A stretch of DNA of 64,000 nucleotides. Source: Terriglobia bacterium (lineage in GTDB: Bacteria; Acidobacteriota; Terriglobia; Bryobacterales; Bryobacteraceae). The stretch lies in the NCBI GenBank assembly GCA_020073445.1, contig JAIQFE010000010.1:1-64000 (forward strand). Reading direction: 5' to 3'. Under the pieces are notes generated by a model. It was not told where the DNA came from, did no database searches, and saw nothing but the letters and a program-made list of their open reading frames with translations. Positions 3,260 through 55,588 of this stretch are shown one piece after another (position 1 is the stretch's first letter; each line of letters starts with the position of its first letter). The position numbers and the translations under genes are program-made.

Positions 3260-3889
3260 ATGGTCGAAGATCACAATCCATCTCCTCCCCAAAAACCTTT
3301 CTGGATGCATCCCTGGCCGTTGTTATTGATGGCGGTGGTGGGAGCGCTGTTGCTGTTTTTCGGTATTACCGGGTCGCGAATCGCGCGTGCCGCCGCCGCA
3401 GTACCCACAAGGAAAGCGGATGTGATCGTTATCTTCGGAGCGGCTGAGTATGCGGGACGCCCTTCGCCGGTGTACCGCGCGAGACTGGATCACGGGTACG
3501 AATTGTTTCAGAAGGGACTGGCGCCGGTGGTGATCACGACCGGCGGATCGGGACAGGATCCGGATTTCAGCGAGGGCGGAGTTGGCAGAAGTTATCTCTT
3601 GCGGCGCGGTGTCCCGGAGCAAGCTCTGATCGAGGAAACACAAGGCTCCGATACAGCGCAGTCCGCGGCGCGCGTCGCCAACATTATGCGCGCAAACGGC
3701 ATGCACAGGTGCATTGCTGTGAGCGATGCGTATCACGTATTCCGCATTCGCGCCCTCCTAGAGCACGAAGGGGTGCAGGTGGAGTTGGCACCCCGGCCAG
3801 AGTCGCGTCCGCACCCACGGTGGGAGCGGTTTGAAGCCGTGATGCGCGAGGCGGCAAGTTACCTGGTCTGGAAAGCGGGGATGACATAG
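3260..3889 (+). CDS. YdcF/DUF218 family membrane-anchored protein
   Basis: The 209-residue protein has one N-terminal transmembrane segment (about residues 20-40) and then a DUF218 domain. Hallmarks of that family are ADVIVIFGAAEY near residue 53, the YRARLDHGYELF helix, VITTGGSG, the serine/threonine-rich GSDTAQSAARV segment and VSDAYHVFRIRALLEHEG. DUF218 proteins are linked to envelope processes: SanA and ElyC, for example, affect peptidoglycan or enterobacterial common antigen. The family is proposed to bind nucleotides or sugars, but the reaction is unknown. The anchor predicts a periplasmic domain. It has its own spacer on each side, so it is probably expressed alone. Confidence 0.85.
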   Translation: MVEDHNPSPPQKPFWMHPWPLLLMAVVGALLLFFGITGSRIARAAAAVPTRKADVIVIFGAAEYAGRPSPVYRARLDHGYELFQKGLAPVVITTGGSGQDPDFSEGGVGRSYLLRRGVPEQALIEETQGSDTAQSAARVANIMRANGMHRCIAVSDAYHVFRIRALLEHEGVQVELAPRPESRPHPRWERFEAVMREAASYLVWKAGMT

Positions 3890-3956
3890 GAGGCGCTGCC
3901 AGCTATGGGCTCCAAGCTTTGCGGGCAGGTTCTCTCTGACGGCGGCAAACCGTAGT

Positions 3957-4017
3957 GTAGAGACGCGGCTTGCCGCGTCTTCTCCAGCGGCTGAGACGAG
4001 GCAAGCCGCGTCTCTAC
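3957..4017. repeat. REP-like doublet between convergent genes
   Basis: One palindromic half (3957-3980, GTAGAGACGCGGC followed by TTGCCGCGTCT) and a second in opposite orientation (3993-4017, ending GCGTCTCTAC) form a REPIN-like doublet between the convergent YdcF-type and DinB-like genes. The inner arm of the second copy has one change (GAGACGAGGC). Confidence 0.85.
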
Positions 4018-4053
4018 GGAAGAATCGGATTGCTCGCGGCTCGAAGCCGGCTT

Positions 4054-4578
4054 CTACCACCCCATCTTTTCTCGCAATCCCGTGACGTGGGCCACGTGAT
4101 GGCGTCCGTGCCAAGAGTACAGCGCCAGAGTTTTCTCGAGCGACATCGGGCCGAGGTCAGGATGGCGGAAGGTACGTTGCCATTCTGTGTCGGTGAACTC
4201 GCGGAGCATCAACATCCAGCGCTGGTGCAGGGAATCGAGCAAGGCCAGCGACACTTCGATGGGGGCGTGTTTGGCCTCGGGCAACTCCGCCCACAGATTT
4301 TCCATGTATGGCTTGATGGTGGGCTCCTCTTCGGTGAGCGCCAGCTTGAAACGAATGTAGGAGTTCATATGGCTGTCGGCAACGTGGTGAGCCACCTGGC
4401 GCGGCGTCCAACCGCCATCGCGGTATGGCGTGTCCAGTTGCTGGTCCGAAAGTCCAAGGAGCGCGGCGCGCAAACGGGTGGGAGTCTGCTCGATGTCGGT
4501 CAGGTACTGCTGTTTCTGTTCTGCGGTGAGCGGGCCGGTGTAGGAAAATTTTCCTATCGGGTAACGCGGGTCAGACAT
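4054..4578 (-). CDS. DinB/YfiT-like metal-dependent protein (BstA-like)
   Basis: This 174-residue four-helix protein matches the DinB superfamily, closest in my judgement to YfiT/BstA proteins described as putative metal-dependent hydrolases or bacillithiol S-transferases. Possible metal ligands are histidines in QVAHHVADSHMN (about residue 64) and in YSWHGRHHVAHV near the C-terminus, the family's usual His triad. The segment YRDGGWTPRQVAHH is characteristic. The thiol used in this organism is not known, so transferase activity is only an inference. The gene is transcribed away from the REP-like doublet, in the same direction as the cyclase-like gene upstream and 59 bp after it. Confidence 0.8.
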   Translation of the reverse strand: MSDPRYPIGKFSYTGPLTAEQKQQYLTDIEQTPTRLRAALLGLSDQQLDTPYRDGGWTPRQVAHHVADSHMNSYIRFKLALTEEEPTIKPYMENLWAELPEAKHAPIEVSLALLDSLHQRWMLMLREFTDTEWQRTFRHPDLGPMSLEKTLALYSWHGRHHVAHVTGLREKMGW

Positions 4579-4637
4579 GAAGTTTCCTCCGAAAAAGTAG
4601 ATGACTTCGGAGCGAAATGTGGTGCAGAAAATAAGGA

Positions 4638-5321
4638 CTAACGAACCATGGCGAGAATGCGAACCGGAGCCTCGCCAGGCTTCCTATTTTTCGCCGGGGC
4701 GACGATGACGAGCGAACCGGTCGCGGGCAGGGAAGTGAAGCGTGCGGCTCCTTCCACTACATAGGCGCCGCGCAGGGCAAGTTGCCGCGCCAGCGTGCGG
4801 TCGGAAGTAAAGTCCACGGGCGTCTCGACGGCAAAGCCGATGGTGTAACGAGCATCGATGAGGAATTGTGCCGCGCCGCGGGTGATGGGAAACGGCGTGG
4901 CTGACATACCACTCATTGACAGGTTGTCTGTCGACGGATTGGTCGTCGCGCCGGTCCGGCGGATGGCAACGACAGCTCCTTGCGGGATCATGCCGTTGTG
5001 CGATTCCCATGCGGCGATATCGTCGAGCGAAATCTGGTGACCTTCATTCGCGGCCTTCAAGTCCATCACAATCAGCGGAGCCACGAGACGTTCCGCCGGA
5101 ATCTGGCCAGCCGCCCAAGTTCCGGGAATGAGTGCATCGGGAGCAATGATATGCGTTCTCGATTCCCTGGCTATGGCTCGCGGTGACGCCGCGTTATCTC
5201 CATCAGTTAAGTCCACGACGTGCGAATAGTGGTCCTGCTGCGTGGAGCCGGGCCGGCGGTCAGCGAACAGTAGAATGGCGAGTACGAGAGCGTAGGCGAT
5301 GATGAAACTGCGAATCCGCAT
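4638..5321 (-). CDS. Exported cyclase-family (kynurenine formamidase-like) protein with a degenerate metal site
   Basis: The 227-residue protein starts with a signal peptide or anchor (residues 5-20). The rest follows the cyclase/KynB fold pattern: VVDLTDG at the start, a THIIAP strand, the QIPAERLVAPLIVMDL segment, SLDDIAAWESHNG, GAVVAIRRTGA, and a late RGAYVVEGAARF. Active members carry a HxGTHxDxPxH metal motif. Here the matching stretch is ESRTHIIAPDA, so only one of the usual ligands is present. I therefore infer that it is not a normal metal-dependent amidohydrolase, although the fold assignment is fairly secure. It is divergent from mrdA across a 347-bp spacer. Confidence 0.65.
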   Translation of the reverse strand: MRIRSFIIAYALVLAILLFADRRPGSTQQDHYSHVVDLTDGDNAASPRAIARESRTHIIAPDALIPGTWAAGQIPAERLVAPLIVMDLKAANEGHQISLDDIAAWESHNGMIPQGAVVAIRRTGATTNPSTDNLSMSGMSATPFPITRGAAQFLIDARYTIGFAVETPVDFTSDRTLARQLALRGAYVVEGAARFTSLPATGSLVIVAPAKNRKPGEAPVRILAMVR

Positions 5322-14806: not shown

Positions 14807-14930
14807 GGCAAAAGTCTATCATGATCGAGAAGCGGCACCGATAAGGGTACTGCTAGTTCCCCCTTGATCCAAGCCGACCTGGGCCTTAGAATTGTTCTCC
14901 ATTCATCGAATGAGTTTTGGAGGAGGACCG

Positions 14931-15536
14931 ATGAGGTTACGTTTGCCGATTGTTCTTTTAGGGTTAGCCAGCGCCGTTTTAGTCCGCGCCGGCACCGTCA
15001 CCATCAACTTCGATGATGGGACCGCGGGTAATGCTATCGGATCGTTTTATGCAGCCCAGGGGCTGACGTTTTCGAACGCCGGCTGGACGGGCCTTGCGGT
15101 GACTGGCATCACTGGCCTCGGTCTTGTGGACATCACCGACGATGGGGCTAATCCCCCCTTCACCCCAACTCCCACGACGCCCATCGTGGGCGTCTTCAGT
15201 TCCGCGCAGTCCTTTGTTTCCATTCTTGCGGGGGACGTTGGGATCGCTGGAGCGAAGATCGACGTCTATGACGCTGTCACCGGCGGGAATCTTATCGGCA
15301 GCGATAGCTTCTTTGGCACCGGCACGGGCGCCGGGCAAACCGCAACGCTTTCCGTCTCGGGTTCCGGCATTCTGCGTTTCGAACTCTATCGGCCGGCTGC
15401 TGCTGACGAGGGTCTGGCGTTTGATAACCTCACCTTCTCGGCCGGCAGCGCGCCGGTTCCGGAACCGTCTACGCTTTTGATGATCGCCCCGGGCGGGGCA
15501 TTGCTGGCTCTGCTCAGGGTTAGGAAGCGCTCCTGA
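14931..15536 (+). CDS. PEP-CTERM sorting-domain protein
   Basis: The 201-residue protein has a signal peptide (residues 1-20), a beta-rich Gly/Thr/Asp body of about 150 residues, and a C-terminal sorting signal: VPEPS, a hydrophobic helix and a basic tail (RVRKRS). Such proteins are exported and handled by an exosortase, usually with exopolysaccharide secretion. The start ATG at 14931 is preceded by a strong GGAGGAGG. The cognate PEP-type exosortase is not in this window; the exosortase at 53900 is a different type with its own PEIS signal. It lies directly upstream of the rplA operon with 111 bp between, an odd neighbour for ribosomal genes. Confidence 0.88.
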   Translation: MRLRLPIVLLGLASAVLVRAGTVTINFDDGTAGNAIGSFYAAQGLTFSNAGWTGLAVTGITGLGLVDITDDGANPPFTPTPTTPIVGVFSSAQSFVSILAGDVGIAGAKIDVYDAVTGGNLIGSDSFFGTGTGAGQTATLSVSGSGILRFELYRPAAADEGLAFDNLTFSAGSAPVPEPSTLLMIAPGGALLALLRVRKRS

Positions 15537-53449: not shown

Positions 53450-53608
53450 GTGAAACTAGCGGGAGTCGTGTTACTGTGCTTTGGCTTAGGAAGCGTCGCG
53501 GTTGCCGGGCCCCTCGGTGCGCCGGAGATTAGTCCGGCTTCCGCTGGCAGCGCCCTGGCCTTGATTTCTGGAGTTGTGCTGGTGATGAACGGGCGGCGTC
53601 GGAATTAG
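53450..53608 (+). CDS. 52-residue exported protein with a PEISP C-terminal sorting signal (copy 1)
   Basis: This tiny protein has a signal peptide (residues 1-20, cut near VAVAG), the motif APEISP at 24-29, a hydrophobic helix (31-46) and a basic end (GRRRN). That layout is the tripartite sorting signal of VPEID/PEP-CTERM proteins, with Ser in place of the Asp. Start GTG 53450 has AGGAG 8 bp upstream. After signal-peptide removal and cleavage near PEIS, only a few residues would remain. A second copy of the same length follows, and the exosortase comes next. The short length makes it easy to miss in gene calling. Confidence 0.8.
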   Translation: MKLAGVVLLCFGLGSVAVAGPLGAPEISPASAGSALALISGVVLVMNGRRRN

Positions 53609-53675
53609 CGTCCCAACGATCGCGGACGTGGCAGATGCCGCGTCCGTGATTCGACATCCGTCCAAAAAGAGACTT

Positions 53676-53834
53676 ATGGTGAAACTGATAGGAAGCCTGT
53701 TGCTGCTGATGGGTATGGCAGGCTTCGCTTTCGCTCCTGTCCCCGCTCCGGAAATTAGCCCGGATTCCGCGACTACTGCGCTCGCCCTGATTTCCGGTGC
53801 GTTGCTCGTGATGCGCGGACGGCAGAAGAAGTAG
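53676..53834 (+). CDS. 52-residue exported protein with a PEISP C-terminal sorting signal (copy 2)
   Basis: The second copy has the same 52 residues in length, with PEISP at the same position (25-29), a hydrophobic segment TTALALISGALLVM and a basic end GRQKK. The signal peptide ends near AFA (residues 18-20). The two copies share the ALALISG segment and the whole plan but differ in most of the signal peptide, so the duplication is old. A small terminator follows at 53864-53885 and separates it from the exosortase gene. Confidence 0.8.
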   Translation: MVKLIGSLLLLMGMAGFAFAPVPAPEISPDSATTALALISGALLVMRGRQKK

Positions 53835-53863
53835 CTAGTCGAATCACAGGTCTGGCGGACGTA

Positions 53864-53885
53864 GCCCGGCTGTGTCCGGGTTTTT
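53864..53885 (+). terminator. Small intrinsic terminator between the PEISP genes and the exosortase
   Basis: GCCCGG (53864-53869) pairs with CCGGGT (53876-53881) around CTGTGT, and TTTTT (53881-53885) follows. The stem is short, so leakage into the exosortase gene is possible. Confidence 0.6.
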
Positions 53886-53888
53886 CGC

Positions 53889-53894
53889 TAAACT
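53889..53894 (+). promoter_or_regulatory. Probable -10 element of the exosortase gene
   Basis: TAAACT lies 5 nt before the TTG start at 53900, preceded by GC. The same GCTAAACT occurs 6 nt before the ATG at 43529. The -35 region has no clear match. If used, the mRNA would be leaderless. Confidence 0.45.
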
Positions 53895-53899
53895 ATCTC

Positions 53900-55588
53900 T
53901 TGCCCGACCTTACTCTAGGACTTACGGTTGACCTGCGGACGCCCGGGAAAGCATCCGGCCTACCCGCCGATTTCCAGCGTTTTGGTATTTTCGTCCGCCT
54001 GCTTATCCTGGCGGTTCTCTTTGCTGCGGAACTGTTGGCCATCTCGGTCGTAGCCGATGGAGCCGAACTCGCGAATCGGGGCGGCTTGTTACGATTTCTC
54101 GCCGCCTGGGGACCCTGGATCCTGAGATGCATCGTAGGTTTCGCCGCGCTCTTCATGACCTTCGGGTATCTGAAGAGCAAGGCTACGTTCGACCGAATCT
54201 CTGAGGGACTGGCCTCCAGTCCGGTCAGCAAGGGATTTCTCGCGGCCCACTTTGCCGCCATCGTTCTGGCCGGCGCTCTCACGCTCGCTCTTTACAAGAC
54301 CAGCGTTTTCGGCCTCCAGGCGGATCTGATCGCGGGAGGCTGGCTGCTCGCGGGTCTTAGCGCGATCGTCTTCGCGTCCATTGCGGTTCTTCCCCCAGCC
54401 GCATGGATTCAGATGGTGCGGGGCACCGGATATCTGTGGCTCTATACCTCGGCCGCGGTTGCCGCGGCCTGCGTGGCTGGAAATGCCAGCCGGTCGCTAT
54501 GGCAGCCGATGGCCCGTCTCACGTTCAGCCTTGTGGAGGGTTTGCTCCGATTGGTGGCTTCCGGCGTGACAGCCGATCCGGCCAAGATGATCATCGGGAC
54601 CGGCAACTTCAGGGTAGAGATCGCGGACCAGTGCTCGGGTTTCGAAGGCGTTGGGCTGATGCTGGCATTCAGCGTGGTCTGGCTCGGTCTGTTTCGGAAG
54701 GAATGCCGCTTCCCCCAGGCGTTACTTCTGATTCCGGTTGGAGTGATCGTTATCTATCTGCTGAACGCCGTGCGCATTGCCGCGCTGGTTCTGATCGGTA
54801 GCGCCGGCGCGCGTGAGATCGCCGTGGGCGGGTTTCACTCGCAGGCGGGTTGGATCGCATTTAACGTGGTTGCGCTGGGCTTCTCCGTGGCCGCGCGGCG
54901 TGTGCCGTACTTCACTCTGAATCCGCCTCCCGCGCACTCTACGGCTCAATCTACCGAGAATCCCACGACCGCGTATCTGATTCCCTTCTTGATGATCCTG
55001 GGTGCGGGGATGGTATCGGGTGCGATGAGCGGGAAGTTCGAATGGTTCTATGGCCTGCGATTCTTTGCCGCGGCGGGGGCATTAGCGGTGTTCCGCAACA
55101 CCTATTCGAAACTGGACTGGAGGGTGGGATGGCTGGGACCGTCGATAGGGGCCGCCGTTTTTTTTCTCTGGATCGGTATTGACCGAATGATGGGGCATCC
55201 GGTGACGACGGCTATGCCGGGTGCGCTCGCCGGGGCTTCGTCGGCTGCGAGGATCACGTGGCTCACATTTCGCGTCCTGGCAGCGACCATCACTGTCCCG
55301 ATCGCCGAGGAACTGGCGTTTCGCGGATTCCTTTTGCGCCGTCTGGTTTCCGCAGACTTCGAGTCCGTCCCTTTTACGCGGTTCACCTGGCTCGCACTTC
55401 TGGTTTCATCGGCGCTGTTCGGCGCCCTGCATGGCAGTCTGTGGTTCCCGGGGATCTTGGCCGGGCTTCTGTACGCCTTCGCGGTTATCCGGCGCGGCAG
55501 AATCGGGGAAGCGGTGGCCGCTCATGCGACCACAAACGCGCTTCTGGCTGGATACGTCCTGCTGTACGGTGCCTGGCACCTTTGGTAG
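53900..55588 (+). CDS. xrtE: Exosortase fused to a CPBP intramembrane protease (exosortase E/protease type)
   Basis: Exosortases are multi-pass membrane transpeptidase-like enzymes that process C-terminal sorting signals. The 562-residue protein has an exosortase part with catalytic Cys245 (DQCSGFEG), Arg292 (NAVRIAA) and His313 (GFHSQAG), and a C-terminal CPBP (CAAX-like) protease part with EELAFRG (Glu470, Glu471, Arg475), FGALH (His511) and HATTN (His542, Asn546). This architecture is the exosortase E/protease of VPEID-CTERM systems, recalled from family descriptions. The two tiny PEISP proteins upstream are the obvious substrates. TTG 53900 is the start because a -10 sits 5 nt before it. 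Confidence 0.88.
   Translation: MPDLTLGLTVDLRTPGKASGLPADFQRFGIFVRLLILAVLFAAELLAISVVADGAELANRGGLLRFLAAWGPWILRCIVGFAALFMTFGYLKSKATFDRISEGLASSPVSKGFLAAHFAAIVLAGALTLALYKTSVFGLQADLIAGGWLLAGLSAIVFASIAVLPPAAWIQMVRGTGYLWLYTSAAVAAACVAGNASRSLWQPMARLTFSLVEGLLRLVASGVTADPAKMIIGTGNFRVEIADQCSGFEGVGLMLAFSVVWLGLFRKECRFPQALLLIPVGVIVIYLLNAVRIAALVLIGSAGAREIAVGGFHSQAGWIAFNVVALGFSVAARRVPYFTLNPPPAHSTAQSTENPTTAYLIPFLMILGAGMVSGAMSGKFEWFYGLRFFAAAGALAVFRNTYSKLDWRVGWLGPSIGAAVFFLWIGIDRMMGHPVTTAMPGALAGASSAARITWLTFRVLAATITVPIAEELAFRGFLLRRLVSADFESVPFTRFTWLALLVSSALFGALHGSLWFPGILAGLLYAFAVIRRGRIGEAVAAHATTNALLAGYVLLYGAWHLW

Follow-up and report, generated by a model that had tools for sequence, protein, structure and literature searches.

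We examined a putative protein-sorting locus in a 64,000-nucleotide stretch of DNA from a Terriglobia bacterium (contig JAIQFE010000010.1), the whole of which is referred to here as the window. The locus contains two tandem genes for very small proteins, the minis, followed by a gene for an exosortase fused to a CPBP protease, all three on the forward strand and all located where an earlier note on this DNA had placed them. Mini 1 (53450–53608) is a predicted substrate of 52 residues read from a GTG at 53450, with AAGGAG ahead of this start, and consists of a signal peptide, a five-residue spacer, the motif PEISP, a C-terminal helix, and the final residues GRRRN. Mini 2 (53676–53834) is likewise 52 residues long when read from the ATG at 53676, and consists of a signal peptide, spacer, PEISP, helix, and RGRQKK. 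The two were said in the note to be identical in length and in the position of PEISP. This holds with the ATG but is lost with the alternative start GTG at 53679, which is homologous to the mini 1 start (GTG AAA CT in both) and yields 51 residues with PEISP one residue earlier. The third gene, xrtE (53900–55588), encodes a fusion of exosortase E and a CPBP glutamic protease of 562 residues (TIGR04162); it starts with TTG in the window and with GTG in a related locus (L004), the starts having been compared by eye. Its exosortase domain (PF09721, residues 106–330, 54215–54889, +) contains Cys245, Arg292, and His313, and its CPBP/Rce1-like protease domain (PF02517, residues 454–548, 55259–55543, +) contains E470, E471, R475, H511, H542, and N546.

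A profile built from 25 minis, all from genomes other than this one, matched mini 1 at E 1.3e-17 and mini 2 at E 3.4e-20. The next match in the window was at 0.061, and the best control matches were 0.13 in the reversed window and 0.014 in three block-shuffled windows, indicating that the two predicted minis are not chance frames.

Two potential RNA structures are interspersed with these genes. A hairpin stem at 53619–53650 (+; ends taken from the dot-bracket structure) lies between the two mini genes. It has no T run and is a strong predicted fold, none of 200 shuffles of the segment 53590–53680 being equally stable (z −3.71). A terminator-like hairpin followed by a T run at 53856–53888 (+), identified by a consensus scan that gave three such sites in the region vs 0.8 expected, lies between mini 2 and xrtE; its fold is weak (z −1.48; 18 of 200 shuffles equally stable). 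On such weak evidence, this hairpin might let the minis outnumber the enzyme.

The fusion enzyme

The window enzyme scored 210.5 bits over residues 91–561 against the exosortase E/protease model TIGR04162 (cut-off 150) and 140.2 bits against TIGR03008 (cut-off 81.05), and was above the cut-off on both PF09721 and PF02517. On these matches, the predicted gene product is classified as an exosortase E/protease (XrtE), a membrane enzyme of a group believed to trim exported proteins and anchor them. Both of its active sites had been described as complete, and an alignment of 28 homologues bears this out: the window protein has every Cys, Arg, and His of the exosortase and every Glu, Arg, His, His, and Asn of the CPBP protease named above, which we take to be the catalytic residues. 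Cys245, Arg292, His313, E471, R475, H542, and N546 are invariant in the alignment, and E470 and H511 are kept in 90% or more of the homologues. These calls rest on the alignment, which supersedes earlier motif regular expressions that were too narrow. The exceptions are L031 and L038, which have another residue in place of E470 (the Glu that opens the protease motif), and L024 and L034, in which H511 is replaced. All four retain the exosortase residues; some XrtE homologues may be able to do without the protease half. No solved structure matched the enzyme profile at E 1.

Association of the minis with the enzyme

A search for related loci yielded 38 enzyme loci, and in 30 of them a mini profile detected a mini within 1.5 kb of the enzyme. 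The profile was partly built from many of the Acidobacteriota loci on which it was then run, but it also matched 10 of 13 proteobacterial loci, none of which had been used to build it. Scanning the whole loci for a plain motif, with no control, detected PEI-type tails at 29 of these 38 loci, and a laxer motif added L005 (PEIP). Five of the eight loci with no mini within this distance have an incomplete flank, upstream in L009 and L029 and downstream in L022, L028, and L041; in the last three, 5 kb of upstream sequence is present and no mini was found there. At L017 the mini is 4.0 kb from the enzyme, and at L013 five minis occur in tandem.

We also surveyed 299 genomes of the class, taken in a single draw, counting minis at E 1e-5 or better and the enzyme above the TIGR04162 cut-off. 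The enzyme was present in 24 genomes, minis in 27, and both in 23 (Fisher p 3e-29, a value that is optimistic because the genomes are related). The sole enzyme genome with no mini at this threshold, G163, has, immediately upstream of its enzyme gene, a diverged mini with SPEVSSS in a frame of 101 codons (E 4.6e-5). Thirty-seven of the 59 minis have an enzyme gene at most 1.1 kb away (counting the split enzyme of G283), always on the same strand, with the mini upstream in 30 cases and downstream in seven; the other 22 are located elsewhere. Of the places where an enzyme occurs, 23 of 28 have a profile-detected mini nearby. At the level of sequence comparison, the pairing of enzyme and minis is real, the minis being found almost only where the enzyme is and mostly adjacent to it on the same strand. 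The earlier note had proposed that the minis belong with the enzyme and had held that homologous loci without small PEI proteins would contradict this; the proposal is supported both by the 23 genomes with both partners and by the 30 loci with a mini in close proximity.

The genome from which the window derives contains a single XrtE above the cut-off and seven minis at four loci: two in the window, one on contig C65 (PEINP), one on C9, and three on C63, of which one shows no clear N-terminus and another diverges in its tail. The C9 mini (L087, 4607–4765, −) carries PEISP and lies directly downstream of a 714-residue frame with a weak VWA match below the cut-off. A profile search of this genome found no larger cargo bearing the mini signal. 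The match next below the seven minis, a 496-codon frame on C44 (E 1.6e-4), is a membrane protein without the PEI-helix-basic tail and was rejected. The genome also contains two more exosortase-family genes and 21 PEP-CTERM (TIGR02595) matches above the cut-off, and therefore the minis stand alongside a conventional system. An ordinary PEP-CTERM protein of 214 residues (VPEPSTLL...RVRKRS) is encoded in the window itself at 14892–15536 (+).

Because five of the seven minis lie far from the enzyme, a role for the minis as a cis-acting guide is argued against. A related case is found in genome G085, whose enzyme at L004 is the nearest to that of the window (75% identical). All that adjoins this enzyme is the remnant of a deleted mini at 4886–4921, consisting of the last codons only (GALLVMRGRHKK) behind a ribosome-binding-like AAGGAGG, and two tandem PEISP minis are found on another contig (L082); a second G085 enzyme (C63) has its own mini nearby. 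Since copies are scattered, and since in G085 the adjacent mini is reduced and PEISP minis are on another contig, substrates acting in trans are favored over a cis-acting guide.

Anatomy and conservation of the minis

Forty-four candidate minis were collected, and 27 of these plus two from L005 made up an alignment of 29 that was restricted to short forms. Left out were the ten proteobacterial minis, the longer ones of L010, L016, L020, and L021, the second L008 copy, and those of L018 and L042 with truncated starts. Among the 34 non-proteobacterial minis, 28 are 49–58 residues long and in two the predicted start is truncated (29 and 35 residues); the ten proteobacterial minis have 70–124 residues and a spacer. 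Because lengths of 49–58 residues predominate to this extent, lack of cargo looks like the rule in the non-proteobacterial minis. By a simple −3/−1 rule, which is a rule of thumb rather than a trained predictor, a signal-peptidase site was found in 34 of 36 short minis, with a median of 5 residues (range 2–11) between this site and PEI. In the window there are 5 such residues in mini 1 and 6 in mini 2, in agreement with the earlier suggestion that signal-peptide removal and cleavage near PEIS would leave at most about ten residues.

The residue following PEI in 37 minis was D in 25, S in 6, N in 4, and P in 2. The earlier note had contrasted the Ser found here with the Asp of the described VPEID-CTERM type. 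A distinction in kind is not supported, given the variation at the position and a VPEIS protein beside an annotated Rhodobacter xrtE, and we accordingly rejected Ser as a specificity switch and regard it as a minor variant. All six minis with Ser come from two genomes of one genus, this genome and G085, and with a 75% identical enzyme and PEISP minis on another contig in the latter it is possible that PEIS goes with an enzyme subtype, the cases being too few to decide.

Within the 37 minis, A at +10 is conserved in 35, R at +22 in 36, and R at +24 in all 37, along with G at +16; PEI had been the selection criterion, and so its invariance tells little. The signal peptide and spacer have 18–19% identity over mini pairs and retain only their character. 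Spacers vary even among copies within one genome (GPLGA, FAPVPA, SAV, GGGIA, GVTVV). In 21 of the 25 closest mini pairs listed, the ratio of nonsynonymous to synonymous substitution rates (dN/dS) was 0.10–0.51. The corresponding ratio of proportions (pN/pS), pooled over all mini pairs, was 0.14 for PEIx and 0.44–0.45 for the helix and tail. These values indicate that the predicted mini genes are real and are conserved as proteins.

Comparison with known sorting systems

We scanned all 29 aligned minis singly against NCBIfam. The VPEID-CTERM model TIGR04161 (cut-off 33) was matched at E 10 or better by 24 of the 29, but was passed by only one (L011:6614–6772, 34.2 bits), the next best scoring 31.4; mini 1 of the window was unlisted and mini 2 scored 15.4 bits. 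The current model thus overlooks 28 of the 29. For the PEP-CTERM model TIGR02595 (cut-off 16 bits) neither window mini was listed, and three of the 29 touched the model, the best at E 3.1. Single minis passed other models, L015:4474–4626 that for MYXO-CTERM (21.0, cut-off 20) and L007:6728–6877 that for LPXTG_anchor (17.3, cut-off 15.9). Tails this short are hard for such models to tell apart, and automatic annotation may misname such minis.

The locus resembles the VPEID-CTERM system of Rhodobacteraceae (TIGR04162/TIGR04161) in having the same fusion enzyme with a small PEI-type protein directly upstream, and it shares with that system the co-occurrence of protein and enzyme (the enzyme is present in 23 of 27 mini genomes, and 37 of 59 minis are adjacent to it). 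Sixteen plasmid records had a match, of which six were examined. In three of these, all Rhodobacteraceae xrtE loci, a 'hypothetical' protein of 64, 71, or 75 residues is encoded directly upstream, the Rhodobacter one being that with VPEIS. An unannotated VPEIG frame precedes xrtE on a Salipiger plasmid; in the Novosphingobium record, a downstream frame of 205 codons carries a PEID tail; and the stretch from Rhodovulum yielded no PEI-type frame. In contrast to VPEID-CTERM, Asp does not follow PEI in either window mini, and the family has S, N, or P besides D at this position; the window minis are about 12–23 residues shorter than the three annotated Rhodobacteraceae proteins, with essentially no spacer; several tandem and scattered copies occur; and most minis fall below the TIGR04161 cut-off.

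The tripartite C-terminal signal is shared with PEP-CTERM/exosortase systems (TIGR02595), but the PEP-CTERM matches of this genome lie in 196–369-codon frames and the minis have PEI rather than PEP. Rhombosortase and its GlyGly-CTERM target are described as encoded side by side in most single-target genomes (PMC3237569); that system is similarly dedicated, whereas the XrtE targets are often several and cargo-less. The myxosortase MrtX is described as a CPBP-family sorting protease that removes a C-terminal sorting tail (PMC11980579). In XrtE, by contrast, the CPBP domain is joined to an exosortase domain, and the Cys that is invariant in the MYXO-CTERM motif is missing from the minis. For archaeosortase A, an artA-pssA-pssD synteny and ArtA-dependent lipid anchoring are reported (PMC7157517), a precedent for transfer to a lipid. 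The likeness here is that, in some genomes, genes of lipid metabolism lie near the gene for an enzyme of the exosortase superfamily; the difference is that the neighbor on the XrtE side is a PF04116 hydroxylase-type gene and that lipid transfer is a proposal.

Interpretation of the locus

We think it probable, on sequence grounds, that this is an exosortase E/protease module dedicated to cargo-less substrates, in which the signal peptide runs almost straight into the PEI-type sorting signal and which are cut down to a very short, probably membrane-linked peptide. A mini would be exported by Sec as a hairpin, and signal peptidase would cut it after AxA. XrtE would cleave within PEI or behind it, with Cys245 probably mediating an acyl transfer, and a peptide of about five residues plus the motif would be left outside. 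This peptide would most likely be passed to a membrane or envelope molecule, because it would otherwise diffuse away; such a transfer is thought to occur between archaeosortase and a lipid. The absent cargo is the unusual part of this otherwise known protein-sorting system. To our knowledge, exosortase chemistry and the acceptor molecule are poorly known. A substrate that is little more than two signals, about 50 residues long and with its gene beside that of its enzyme, would come near to a minimal test substrate suited to co-expression and mass spectrometry.

Several observations weigh against this interpretation. Four non-proteobacterial minis are longer (L010, 69; L016, 76; L020, 60; L021, 94 residues). 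Pro at +1 disfavors cleavage by signal peptidase, and because mini 2 has Pro at +1 after AFA, cleavage of its signal may take place at another site, or the signal may be retained. Among the 25 closest mini pairs, one had a dN/dS of 1.12 (7 changes) and three were saturated or not computable; pooled pN/pS reached 0.87 in the signal peptide and 0.81 in the spacer. No mini was found at L038, where both flanks are present, or near 5 of the 28 enzyme places. Four genomes (G283, G052, G004, and G101) have minis but no enzyme above the cut-off. In G283 a split enzyme adjoins the mini, and G052 has enzyme fragments; the assemblies of G004 and G101 are 99% and 96% complete. For these last two, with orphan minis at L073 (G004:C32) and L074 (G101:C39), the enzyme may lie in an assembly gap, or have been lost or replaced.

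It is also conceivable, though unlikely, that the minis are not released at all: the N-terminal helix would stay in place, and each mini would be a two-helix membrane hairpin that regulates, guides, or stabilizes XrtE as a pseudo-substrate or subunit. The two hydrophobic helices, the non-conserved spacer too short for cargo, and the frequent position of the gene beside that of the enzyme would all suit such a hairpin. The distribution of the minis is untypical of a subunit, however, with 22 of 59 away from the enzyme and up to seven per genome; a −3/−1 type box ahead of PEI in 34 of 36 and the longer, varied spacers of the proteobacterial relatives also speak against the hairpin. We consider it quite improbable that this is simply an ordinary VPEID-CTERM system in which the minis are just the smallest members of a known substrate family, their shortness being nothing special. 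Proteins of 64–75 residues do occupy the same place at three annotated Rhodobacteraceae xrtE genes, most minis match TIGR04161 weakly and one passes it, and some non-proteobacterial minis have 60–94 residues; against this, 28 of 29 fall under the cut-off of 33 and 28 of 34 cluster at 49–58 residues. Variation of the spacer, which differs even between copies of one genome and has 18% identity over all pairs, makes it very improbable that XrtE releases a peptide pheromone or other secreted signal of 5–9 residues, even though the predicted remainder is that short, the copies occur in tandem, as they do in some peptide-precursor families, and a sensor-kinase-like gene turned up at four loci when the neighbors of 58 loci were clustered.

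A hydroxylase-type gene near the minis

In the same clustering of 58 loci, the family most recurrent apart from the enzyme was a PF04116 lipid-hydroxylase-type family found at nine loci, the next family being at six. In the window's genome, the PF04116 gene (L042, on C63, 3630–4469, +; 108 bits, cut-off 31) lies tail-to-tail with the three minis of that contig at a distance of about 10 bases and is the sole homologue at E 1e-10. Its nearest NCBIfam model is OlsE (NF052566), for which its 78.2 bits fall short of the cut-off of 475. Within the 299-genome draw, 11 of 15 PF04116-type matches scoring at least 160 bits had a mini or the enzyme no more than 250 bases away, in a tail-to-tail arrangement in nine of these 11 cases. 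The other four were in G006 (with mini PEP-CTERM neighbors), G052 (C189) and G004 (C6), both at contig ends, and G209, where nothing was found nearby. Only one of 12 weaker matches in the class was adjacent, this being a fragment at the same G188 locus. The histidine motifs are conserved in 12 aligned hydroxylases. In the phylum outside the class, none of 28 matches (27 genomes, 125–209 bits) had a mini in flanks of up to about 1.5 kb, a search that did not include XrtE; a lax motif match at L124 was dropped by eye as a proline-rich frame, and a profile match at L105 (0.33) was not a mini.

The link to the hydroxylase is class-restricted and, because it is mostly tail-to-tail, not an operon, and it belongs with the observations unfavorable to our interpretation. 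Class-limited synteny of this kind may reflect shared ancestry, and we take it as a lead. Where a PF04116 gene lies beside the minis, as in some members of the class, its product may speculatively modify the partner molecule. We regard as distinctly doubtful the fuller proposal that XrtE makes lipopeptides instead of anchoring proteins, in which tiny precursors would yield short peptides attached to a membrane (amino)lipid and the hydroxylase would modify this lipid. If genuine, the link to the hydroxylase would point to a class of acceptor, as the artA-pssA-pssD neighborhood did for archaeosortase. An ornithine-lipid version found no support: PF13444, presumably OlsB/OlsF-type, is in 12 of 17 genomes and is absent from the hydroxylase genomes G188, G183, and G006. 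The literature searched contained no mention of exosortase E, and VPEID-CTERM was in none of the matches listed. It also gave no account of cargo-less exosortase substrates or a hydroxylase partner, although its coverage excluded the main J Bacteriol exosortase papers and absence from print is not established. The reference list of PMC11631085 includes a title linking N-acyl amino acid synthases to PEP-CTERM/exosortase.

Genome G006, which has no TIGR04162 match, carries at L091 (C138, +) tandem mini PEP-CTERM proteins at 3828–4004 and 4031–4204 (58 and 57 residues) with a PF04116-type gene at 4431–5306 downstream. The two proteins score 20.9 and 25.7 bits against the PEP-CTERM model (cut-off 16), and the arrangement hints that precursors of this sort might be handled by a different type of exosortase.

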